From contig VGXC01000001.1 in NCBI GenBank assembly GCA_016873495.1, positions 1 through 64,000 of the forward strand: a DNA stretch of 64,000 nt. The letters run 5' to 3'. Of the stretch, positions 33,089 to 36,782 are shown one piece after another (position 1 is the first letter of the stretch; each line of letters begins with the position of its first letter). This DNA comes from Nitrospira sp. GTDB lineage: Bacteria > Nitrospirota > Nitrospiria > Nitrospirales > Nitrospiraceae. The translations under genes and the position numbers were made by a program. The notes beneath the pieces were generated by a model. The model worked only from the letters and a program-made list of their open reading frames with translations, searched no databases and was not told the origin of the DNA.

Positions 33089-34191
33089 AGCGGGCCAAAC
33101 GCATTGTCGTCAAGATCGGGAGCAGCCTCGTCGCGTCCCAGGGCGTCGGGCTGCGGCCGGAGCGCATCGAACGCCTGGCCGGCGAGATCGCGGCGATCAA
33201 GGCGGACGGACGCGAGGCGCTCCTGGTTTCGTCGGGCGCCATCGTGTCGGGACTCCAAAAGTTGGGGCTGACCACCCGCCCCAAGAGTTTGCCCGTGAAA
33301 CAGGCCGCCGCCGCCGTGGGCCAAAGCCGGCTGATGTGGGCCTATGAAAAGGCCTTTGAACCGTTGCAGCAGCGGGTCGCCCAGGTGTTGCTCACGCACC
33401 AGGACCTGACGGACCGGCGACGGTTCCTGAACGCCCGACACACCCTGACCACTCTGATTGACTTCGAGGTGATTCCGATCATCAACGAGAACGACACGGT
33501 GGCTGTGGACGAGATCCGCTTCGGCGACAACGACTCCCTGGCGGCCCAGGTGGCGCACCTCGTGGACGCCGATCTTCTGGTCATTCTGTCCGATGTGGAT
33601 GGACTGTTCTCGGAAGACCCGCGTCGGAACGCCTCCGCGACCCTGATTCCCCTCGTGACGGACATCACCAAGGAAGTGGAACGTCGCGCCGGGGTTTCCA
33701 GCAGCTTCGAAGGGACCGGCGGCATGGCCACCAAGATCCAGGCGGCCAAGAAGGTGGCGGAATACGGCGTACCGACGCTGATCCTCAACGGGGACAAGCC
33801 AGGGTTGCTCGGCACGACCTTGCGAGGCGGGCCCGGCGGGACCTTTTTCCTGCCCCGGCATCGCCGTCTGACCAACCGGAAGCACTGGATCGCCTTCACC
33901 CTGCGGGGCAAAGGCCAGATCACGGTGGACGAGGGGGCTGAAGAGGCCCTCGTGCGCCGAGGGAAAAGCCTCCTGGCGTCGGGCATCCTCGCTGTGGCAG
34001 GCGAGTTCGGCCAGGGCGACGCGGTTACGTGTCTCACCCGTCACGGCAAAGAGTTTGCCAAGGGGTTGGTGAATTTTTCCGCCGAGACGCTGGACCAGAT
34101 CAAGGGCCTGAAAACCGCCGAGATACAAAAGACGCTCGGCCGGCAGGAGTATGGCGAAGTGATTCACAGGGACAATCTCGTAATATTGTGA
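33070..34191 (+). CDS. proB: Glutamate 5-kinase
   Basis: A 373-residue enzyme for the first step of proline synthesis. The amino acid kinase domain (RIVVKIGSSLVASQG, LLVSSGAIVSGLQKLG, INENDTVAVDEIRFGDNDSL, GTGGMATKIQAAK) is followed by a C-terminal PUA domain (about 275-370). The ATG lies inside the 3' end of obgE. proA is not in the window. Confidence 0.96.
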   Translation: MRDHLLKRAKRIVVKIGSSLVASQGVGLRPERIERLAGEIAAIKADGREALLVSSGAIVSGLQKLGLTTRPKSLPVKQAAAAVGQSRLMWAYEKAFEPLQQRVAQVLLTHQDLTDRRRFLNARHTLTTLIDFEVIPIINENDTVAVDEIRFGDNDSLAAQVAHLVDADLLVILSDVDGLFSEDPRRNASATLIPLVTDITKEVERRAGVSSSFEGTGGMATKIQAAKKVAEYGVPTLILNGDKPGLLGTTLRGGPGGTFFLPRHRRLTNRKHWIAFTLRGKGQITVDEGAEEALVRRGKSLLASGILAVAGEFGQGDAVTCLTRHGKEFAKGLVNFSAETLDQIKGLKTAEIQKTLGRQEYGEVIHRDNLVIL

Positions 34192-34258
34192 GTGGTGATC
34201 GAGTGATTGGGCAATTTGCGCTTGACGTAACTTTGGCTAGATATCCGCTTGCGTTTCC

Positions 34259-34282
34259 CGGTTCACGGTTCACGCTTCACGC
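34259..34282. repeat. Degenerate GGTTCAC/GCTTCAC heptamers in front of nadD
   Basis: GGTTCAC-GGTTCAC-GCTTCAC runs up to 3 nt before the nadD ATG, where a ribosome site would be expected. It is the same heptamer family as at 2147 and 7661. Confidence 0.7.
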
Positions 34283-34285
34283 CCT

Positions 34286-34978
34286 ATGAAGATCGGTTTG
34301 TTCGGCGGAACGTTCGATCCGGTTCACCGCTGCCATGTCGCCGTGGCCACGCAGGTGCGGGACCGGCTGGACCTGGACCGCGTGCTGCTCATTCCCTCGG
34401 GCGATCCGCCGCATAAACCCCTGGGCACCCTGGCGCCGGCCGTCCACCGTCTCGAGATGGTCCGACTGGCCATCGCCGGCGAGTCTTTTCTGGAGGCGTC
34501 AGAGCTGGAGATCCGGCGTCCCGCCAAGTCCTACAGCATCGAAACCGTCCGCACCCTGAAGGAACAGTACGGCCCCGGAGCCGAGCTCTTCTTCCTAATC
34601 GGGCTCGATGCGTTTCTCGAACTCCACACCTGGAAAGATGCCCCGAGCCTGCTGAGCCTCTGCCATTTCGTCGTCGTGTCGCGTCCCCTCTGCCGTTTTG
34701 CCGCGCTGCGGACCCTGCCGGTACTCCCCCCCCTCGACCCTATCGCCCTCGCACACATCGATTCCCAAGGCCAGGACCGTCTCGATTTTCCCCTGACTGG
34801 GGGAACCAGCCTCATCCTCCTCGCCCTGCCACCCTGCGAGGCCTCCGCCACGGACATTCGGCGCCGGCTTCGAGCGCGCCTGCCCCTGTCAAACCTGTTG
34901 CCCGCCTCGGTGGAATCCTATATAATTCAACACCGACTGTATCAGGAGGCATCAGATCGCACCAGAGTCGAAGGCTAA
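34286..34978 (+). CDS. nadD: Nicotinate-nucleotide adenylyltransferase
   Basis: A 230-residue enzyme of NAD synthesis that joins NaMN and ATP. MKIGLFGGTFDPVHRCHVAV is the nucleotidyltransferase GGTFDPxHxGH-type motif (Gly replaced by Cys in HRCH), DRVLLIPSGDPPHKP and the ISATDIRRR-like ASATDIRRRLR segment follow. No Shine-Dalgarno sequence is visible because a heptamer repeat occupies that space. Its 3' end overlaps rsfS. Confidence 0.95.
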   Translation: MKIGLFGGTFDPVHRCHVAVATQVRDRLDLDRVLLIPSGDPPHKPLGTLAPAVHRLEMVRLAIAGESFLEASELEIRRPAKSYSIETVRTLKEQYGPGAELFFLIGLDAFLELHTWKDAPSLLSLCHFVVVSRPLCRFAALRTLPVLPPLDPIALAHIDSQGQDRLDFPLTGGTSLILLALPPCEASATDIRRRLRARLPLSNLLPASVESYIIQHRLYQEASDRTRVEG

Positions 34979-35378
34979 CGCTCTCGCCATTGCTCAAGCC
35001 GCCCTCGAGAAGAAGGCCGACGACGTCCTTGTCCTTGATGTCGCCAAGCTGACTTCCGTGGCCGACTACTTGATTCTCTGCTCAGGGGAGACGGAGCGCC
35101 ACGTACGAGCCATCGCGGATCACATTGACCAGTCCTTGTCCGACCGACGCCACCCTCCGCTCAGCATGGAAGGCGCGTCGACGTCACAGTGGATTCTGAT
35201 CGATTTCGGGGATGTCGTGGCCCACATCTTTCGCTCCGACATCCGCGCGCACTACGGACTGGAGCATTTGTGGGCTGACGCCAGGCAGGTTCGACTGCCT
35301 GCCACGCTCCAGACGCCGGCGGTCAGCCCCCTGCCGACGGCTAAGCCACGCACGCGCCGCGTGCGCAAACAAGGATAG
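34956..35378 (+). CDS. rsfS: Ribosomal silencing factor RsfS, probable ATC start
   Basis: A 140-residue protein that binds bL14 and blocks subunit joining. The conserved part begins NALAIAQAALEKKADDVLVL and continues DVAKLTSVADYLILCSGETE and WILIDFGDVVAHIF. The frame opens after a TAA at 34923 and has no ATG, GTG or TTG before 35058; starting at that GTG would delete the first 34 residues, including conserved ones. A perfect AGGAGG (34944-34949) lies 6 nt before ATC at 34956, so I propose an ATC start overlapping nadD by 23 nt. nadD-rsfS order is widespread. Confidence 0.85.
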   Translation: MAPESKANALAIAQAALEKKADDVLVLDVAKLTSVADYLILCSGETERHVRAIADHIDQSLSDRRHPPLSMEGASTSQWILIDFGDVVAHIFRSDIRAHYGLEHLWADARQVRLPATLQTPAVSPLPTAKPRTRRVRKQG

Positions 35379-35381
35379 CGC

Positions 35382-36782
35382 ATGTTCCGGCTCCTCTTGA
35401 CAGTCTTCTTCATCATCAGCGCCGCCCTGATCTACGGGTACTTCCAAGAGCTCAATCCCGGCTTCGTCACCATTAGGATCAGTCCGACGGAGGCCCTGGA
35501 CCTCAATCCGATCACCCTGATGCTCCTGTCCATGGCGGCCGGCTCCCTGATCGTCACCCTGATGGTCGGGGTCCGGGAGACCAAACATTTGATTCTGAGC
35601 TGGAAAACCTCGCGCCTGCGCCGACGCGAGGAGAAAGTGGACGCCCTGCATCGGGAAGGCATGCACGCCTTCCTGTCGAAACGCACCGCCGAAGCCATCG
35701 GCCTGTTTGAAAAAACGCTGGCGCTCGACCCCAACCACGCCGACTCCCTGCTCTGGCTGGGCAACCTCTACCGGACAGAACGTAACTATCCGGAGGCCAT
35801 CCGCCTGCATCGCAAGGCGCGCAGCATCGACGAACGCAACGCGGAGGTCCTCCTCGCACTCGCCATGGACATGGAAGGGGCCAAGCGATTCGAGGAAGCC
35901 CTGCAGGTTCTGCACGACATCCTCAAGCTCGACCCGGGACACCTCAGCGCGCTCATGCGCAAGCGGGACCTCTACATTCGCCTCGAACAGTGGAGCGACG
36001 CGCTGGAGATTCAACAGCAGCTGGTGAAAGCCCATCTCTCGGAACAGGATCAGCGGGCCGAAACCAGACTTTTGGTCGGCATGACCTACGAGGTAGGCCG
36101 GCAATGGCTGGAGCGCGGCCACCCCGAGAAGGCCCGCCACTCGTTTCGCGCCGCCATCAAACGGGACAAGACCTTCCTGCCGGCTTACATCGGCCTCGGC
36201 GAAATTCTCGTCCGTGAGGGCAAGACCAGGAATGCCGCCGAAATCCTGGAGAAAGTGTACGTGAAAACCGGAAACCTCATCATCCTGCACCGACTGGAAG
36301 AGCTGTATCTGGAGATCGGCGAACCGGGCGAGATCATTCGGGTCTATCAGGAAGCCTGCCAGCGCGATCCCCAGAATCCGGCTTTGCGGTTTTATCTCGG
36401 GAAATTATATTATCGGCTGGAGATGATCGATGAGGCGTTCGACCTCCTCTCGACCCTGGAGGGACCCCAGGATCAAATGGCCGACTTTCACAAGATCATG
36501 GCGAACCTCTACCTGCGGAAGCAACAGATGGACCACGCGGTCGAGGAATTGAAAAAAGCCCTGGGATTCAAGAAACGCGTGGTGGTCCCCTATCTCTGCA
36601 GCTCCTGCCGTCACGAATCATCCGACTGGTCCGGACGCTGCAGCCGCTGCGGCCAATGGAATACCTATACAGCGCTGCCTTGGGTGGACGCGTCCGCGAC
36701 GGCGTTTCCCCGCGAGGGCCATGAGATAGAATCCCGCGCCATGTCCTACCGAGGCCTCACGTCGCCGTTTGAGACCGTGTAG
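35382..36782 (+). CDS. lapB: LapA-like membrane anchor fused to a LapB-type TPR/zinc protein
   Basis: A 466-residue protein. Two N-terminal transmembrane helices (about 4-22 and 46-68) with ELNPGFVTIRI between them look like a DUF1049/LapA domain. TPR units fill about 90-400 (EAIGLFEKTLALDPNHADSL, YIGLGEILVREGKTRNAAEI). The end carries the LapB rubredoxin-type metal site, Cys406-X2-Cys409 and Cys420-X2-Cys423 (WSGRCSRCGQWNTY). LapB tunes LpxC proteolysis and LPS assembly in proteobacteria. Three bases separate it from rsfS. The LPS role here is inferred. Confidence 0.85.
   Translation: MFRLLLTVFFIISAALIYGYFQELNPGFVTIRISPTEALDLNPITLMLLSMAAGSLIVTLMVGVRETKHLILSWKTSRLRRREEKVDALHREGMHAFLSKRTAEAIGLFEKTLALDPNHADSLLWLGNLYRTERNYPEAIRLHRKARSIDERNAEVLLALAMDMEGAKRFEEALQVLHDILKLDPGHLSALMRKRDLYIRLEQWSDALEIQQQLVKAHLSEQDQRAETRLLVGMTYEVGRQWLERGHPEKARHSFRAAIKRDKTFLPAYIGLGEILVREGKTRNAAEILEKVYVKTGNLIILHRLEELYLEIGEPGEIIRVYQEACQRDPQNPALRFYLGKLYYRLEMIDEAFDLLSTLEGPQDQMADFHKIMANLYLRKQQMDHAVEELKKALGFKKRVVVPYLCSSCRHESSDWSGRCSRCGQWNTYTALPWVDASATAFPREGHEIESRAMSYRGLTSPFETV

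Follow-up and report, generated by a model that had tools for sequence, protein, structure and literature searches.

An AUC start codon of rsfS conserved across Nitrospiraceae, a candidate for control by IF3

Introduction

Initiation factor IF3 represses initiation when the codon is not AUG, GUG or UUG, and controls its own gene, infC, through such a codon: AUU in E. coli and AUC in Streptomyces (PMC5472188). Streptomyces sigR is also repressed by IF3, via a GUC start (PMC5472188). In discriminating between codons, IF3 responds to how strong the third base pair is (PMC10158994). In E. coli pcnB, an AUU start limits expression (Binns and Masters 2002, as cited in PMC1780047). E. coli RsfS binds uL14 and blocks subunit joining; in a rimM mutant, IF3 and RsfS rise together and jointly prevent premature subunit joining (PMC13246957). 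The E. coli rsfS gene has a UUG start (PMC10917681), seen as TTG in the K-12 sequence.

Here, we describe the rsfS gene in a 64,000-nucleotide stretch of a Nitrospira sp. genome (hereafter the window), with a predicted AUC start. Like infC of E. coli and Streptomyces, it encodes a ribosomal anti-association factor and has a conserved AUH start after a Shine-Dalgarno (SD) sequence. RsfS acts on the 50S subunit, however, and control by IF3 would here be a candidate case of cross-regulation rather than autoregulation. Streptomyces sigR provides a second gene with a non-canonical start, and its GUC codon also serves rsfS in relatives from the same class; but sigR encodes a stress sigma factor whose IF3 dependence was tested in vivo, whereas we infer that of rsfS. 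The pcnB gene shares the AUH start codon, although its product is not an anti-association factor; the rsfS codon, in turn, is kept throughout an entire family. E. coli rsfS is the same gene with a weak start, but UUG is canonical and keeps the third-base G, which AUC, UUA and AUA do not.

The rsfS locus

The features of the window referred to below are as follows.

34286..34978, + strand: nadD, nicotinate-nucleotide adenylyltransferase (TIGR00482 / NF000840 matches, ORF)
34898..34903, + strand: TTGCCC, -35 hexamer of a probable promoter for rsfS within nadD
34921..34926, + strand: -10 hexamer TATAAT of the same promoter, ending 29 nt before ATC
34923..34925, + strand: in-frame TAA, the upstream bound of the rsfS frame
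34944..34949, + strand: Shine-Dalgarno sequence AGGAGG, 6 nt 5' of ATC (AGG AGG or close variants across the family)
34956..34958, + strand: predicted rsfS start codon ATC (AUC), from family conservation
34956..35378, + strand: rsfS coding sequence of 140 codons, counted from ATC, and a stop codon (PF02410, TIGR00090, solved RsfS relatives)
35058..35060, + strand: GTG, the first canonical start in the rsfS frame, rejected as start

Following the TAA at 34923-34925, the rsfS frame runs open for 150 codons (34926-35378), and ATG, GTG and TTG are absent from it upstream of the GTG at 35058-35060. By domain score the product belongs to the RsfS / iojap family, exceeding the cut-offs of both PF02410 (6e-31, 106.9 bits against 21.6, matching from frame residue 21) and the equivalog TIGR00090 (110.9 bits against 56.9). 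A start at 35058 would mean the loss of 34 residues, of which about 21 can be aligned to solved RsfS structures. The SD sequence AGGAGG is followed by a 6-nt spacer (CATCAG) and then ATC; it lies within the last codons of nadD, the 3' end of which overlaps the rsfS start by 23 nt. The initial annotation had claimed that no ATG, GTG or TTG precedes 35058 and that 34 residues would otherwise be lost, that the conserved RsfS N-terminus is encoded upstream of this position, and that AGGAGG stands 6 nt before the ATC within the end of nadD. All of this is borne out by the frame scan, by the domain matches and structure alignment, and by the positions of the SD sequence and the nadD stop (34978). 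A search for Rfam families at 34000-35600 found none.

We ranked the 423 ORFs of a 464-kb genome sample by the coding signal lost at their best canonical start, using a simple codon model; rsfS came first. Odd starts do not seem general in this sample: on inspection the other top ORFs looked like antisense frames, fragments or poor boundary calls. The rplT gene, also flagged in the ranking, has a normal ATG. The gene following rsfS (35382-36782) encodes TPR repeats and a weak match to a LapB-type rubredoxin metal-binding domain near the C-terminus (PF18073, scoring under its cut-off), and may be a relative of lapB.

Conservation of the start codon

We collected 87 rsfS loci, which represent 22 genera of the family (Nitrospiraceae). 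The codon at the start position is ATC in 65 and AGC in 22. Where no GTG stands directly 5' of it, the codon is ATC in 63/63 loci and never ATT; the 24 loci with a directly adjacent GTG all belong to genus g14 and have AGC (22) or ATC (2). ATC is found at the same place in all four genomes of the window's genus, and each of the other family genera sampled has it too. The same codon in independent genomes excludes a sequencing error turning ATG into ATC, which the initial annotation had named as a possible refutation.

On an rsfS tree of 86 tips (length 11 substitutions per site), we counted parsimony steps per codon position. The start codon shows 0/3/0 steps at positions 1/2/3, all three of them within genus g14, while the flanking codons -1 and +1 show 31 and 28 steps. 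Third positions over the next 90 codons average 14.8 steps, and the sole codon without any change among these is Trp 78, a residue with a single codon. Other Ile columns of rsfS have 12-14 third-base changes, with mixtures of ATC and ATT such as 26:16 and 16:29. Codons 5-12, which precede every canonical start in most genera of the family, show 18/15/103 steps at positions 1/2/3, a pattern that indicates selection on the protein sequence encoded by the rsfS frame. In locus L070, this frame is open for just 21 nt 5' of ATC, so the start cannot lie much farther upstream.

The overlapping gene does not account for this conservation. The nadD residues encoded across the ATC vary (D/N/H/Y, then R/H/L/P) while ATC remains unchanged, and 13 loci have an interruption of the nadD frame upstream of an equally unchanged ATC; we therefore exclude nadD as its cause. 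What marks an infC-type start is thus found here: no ATG, GTG or TTG is compatible with the conserved RsfS N-terminus, the codon is a third-base variant of AUG at a proper distance from a strong SD sequence, and the triplet is kept beyond the constraint from the protein and the overlapping gene.

All 22 AGC loci lie in genus g14, each with GTG directly upstream. The order of events in this genus can be read off from its present-day sequences: ATC alone, then GTG ATC, then GTG AGC. Judging from these loci, ATC decays only once an adjacent canonical start has arisen. Loci with this stepwise replacement of ATC by an adjacent GTG are L042, L044-L047, L049, L087-L090 and L173-L189. Genus g14 is a natural experiment on the loss of a weak start; most of its species moved to GTG, indicating that the weak start is dispensable in this genus.

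Comparison with related genomes had been suggested in the initial annotation, and over the 87 loci it returns ATC, or AGC only beside GTG. Conservation across 22 genera, protein-level selection after ATC and decay in g14 only beside GTG agree with its proposal that rsfS starts at this codon. The agreement in these comparisons goes well beyond chance; the AUC at 34956 is almost certainly the rsfS start, and a weak start codon has very probably been maintained here by selection.

A promoter-like sequence inside nadD

The sequence TTGCCC-N17-TATAAT, of sigma-70 type, matches 10 of 12 consensus bases. Within the family, TATATA[AC]T occurs in 86/87 loci and TTGCC at the -35 spacing in 86/86, with a distance of mostly 29 nt between the -10 box and the rsfS start. 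The nadD Leu codon within the -35 element is TTG in 85/87 loci; elsewhere in nadD, TTG makes up 9.5% of Leu codons. Likewise, ATA accounts for 4% of Ile codons elsewhere in nadD, yet is used in the -10 region. As the promoter-like sequence is fixed by otherwise uncommon nadD codons, rsfS probably has its own transcript with a short leader, and the sequence at 34898-34926 probably drives it.

A different arrangement is seen in family f33 (loci L200, L216 and L220), where rsfS starts with ATG and the TATAAT box ends approximately 6-9 nt before it. The rsfS transcript of this family may be leaderless. Leaderless initiation favours AUG, and this preference might explain the exception.

Start codons of rsfS and infC in the phylum

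Outside the family, we read the rsfS start codons from SD spacing and alignment, so these are less certain than the ATC within it. In the same order, family f2 has ATA or ATC, genus g28 of family f4 has ATT, g36 has ATT or ATG, and g31 and g34 have ATC, while others (g30, g35, g37) have ATG or GTG. In other classes or orders, the codon is GTC or GTA (f8, f6) or ATA or ATT (f15, f27, f31). UUA is very frequent (f26, f32, f34-f37, f39-f41), as in GGAGGG...CCT TTA GAA AGT AAA GAA AAG GC, and CUA is also among the codons found at the start position after an SD sequence. These codons without a third-base G align with the AUG column of the families that have AUG. In 25 of 60 loci from other classes or orders, there is no ATG, GTG or TTG between the in-frame stop and the conserved RsfS domain. 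By comparison, in a partial control of 16 rsfS loci from other phyla, the open frame always contains a canonical codon close to the conserved N-terminus.

The infC gene of the window's genome (L121, outside the window) reads GAGAGG TGTCGT ATC GTC CCC AAA, and all 25 family genomes checked have ATC GTN at the infC start. Its neighbour rpmI was recognised in 33 loci and has a canonical start in each of them. In rplT, used as a further control, there were three apparent misses; the pattern matches there lie inside coding sequence and were excluded. Elsewhere in the phylum, infC starts mostly with ATA or ATC, among the loci that match our recognition pattern (some, such as L257 and L273, do not). 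In genus g28 of the sister family f4, rsfS keeps ATT though infC seems to have ATG available, indicating that the two starts do not always change together. The property common to the putative rsfS and infC starts of the phylum is a third base other than G.

Discussion

In the model we propose, rsfS translation would start at AUC with initiator tRNA, guided by the strong SD sequence, and probably on a short mRNA from a promoter inside nadD. The third-base mismatch would make initiation weak and sensitive to IF3, as IF3 rejects such codons, and IF3 would repress rsfS as well as infC, which also has AUC. A shortage of IF3 relative to 30S subunits would allow synthesis of both anti-association factors, RsfS acting on the 50S and IF3 on the 30S, whereas an abundance of IF3 would reduce the synthesis of both. 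We consider it likely that the rsfS AUC is a selected weak, IF3-sensitive start through which the IF3 level sets RsfS synthesis, and, by analogy with the known genes, we lean towards IF3 as the sensor. This link to IF3, already suggested in the initial annotation, gains weight from the ATC start of infC within the family and from the third-base variants that serve rsfS across the phylum. The shared AUC suggests that two subunit-separating proteins are under one translational brake.

The main rival is a true AUC start that simply keeps RsfS low, with a fixed output and no sensing of IF3. Weak rsfS starts do occur elsewhere (TTG in E. coli K-12), E. coli pcnB is limited by its AUU according to the work cited in PMC1780047, and the drift among AUC, AUA, AUU, UUA, GUA and GUC in the phylum is as expected if weakness alone matters. 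However, a strong, conserved SD sequence and a promoter-like sequence are an odd route to low output, and the exact conservation of AUC in one family, with infC sharing the codon, suggests more than a set level. We regard such a fixed start as quite possible, if somewhat doubtful; perturbation of IF3 would distinguish it from sensing by IF3.

Other explanations concern the overlap with nadD or the position of the start. Since the end of nadD overlaps rsfS here and in most of the family, ribosomes finishing nadD might restart at the nearby SD sequence and tolerate AUC, making the codon a by-product of the overlap. This is improbable, as 13 loci end the nadD frame before an intact ATC, the conserved promoter within nadD would yield rsfS transcripts without a translated nadD, and infC has the same start yet does not follow nadD. 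Besides overlapping nadD, rsfS lies in its +1 frame, as a NadD-RsfS fusion through +1 frameshifting near the nadD end would demand. But the nadD stop shifts between loci, in some to a position upstream of ATC, we saw no shared slippery site at the nadD stops, and it is the SD sequence and ATC that are conserved; a fusion is barely credible. Automatic annotation would instead pick a downstream codon (in the window GTG 35058, in some genera an ATG at codon 15) and leave the part before it untranslated. Most loci in genera g5, g15, g16 and g18 do have this ATG 15 codons downstream, and it is potentially usable as well. A downstream start is nevertheless highly improbable as the true one: substitutions in the upstream codons number 18/15/103 over the three codon positions, this part is covered by both the family profile and the solved structures, and in many genera it lacks a canonical start.

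Although IF3 is known to read non-canonical starts, we did not find rsfS described in the literature searched as carrying one, with conservation throughout a family and occurrence across a phylum. We found no report there of AUC, AUU or UUA starts for rsfS; one preprint on non-AUG starts lay outside the search. This preprint, by Gvozdjak and Samanta, reportedly names genes preferring non-AUG starts, infC for example, and suggests control by IF3; it may include rsfS.

Conclusion

Few bacterial genes have well supported starts outside AUG, GUG and UUG; those met here are infC, pcnB and sigR. That another anti-association factor besides IF3 has such a start suggests that IF3 reads start-codon identity as a regulatory signal in genes other than infC. 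In the genomes of this family, which includes the Nitrospira nitrite oxidisers, both rsfS and infC are likely truncated by automatic annotation. Returning to an IF3-sensitive rsfS start, we tentatively propose, with a little less than even confidence, that IF3 and RsfS form a regulon throughout Nitrospirota, defined by starts with a third base other than G, in which IF3 activity would set both. If so, a lack of IF3 would also raise the factor that holds back the 50S subunit.
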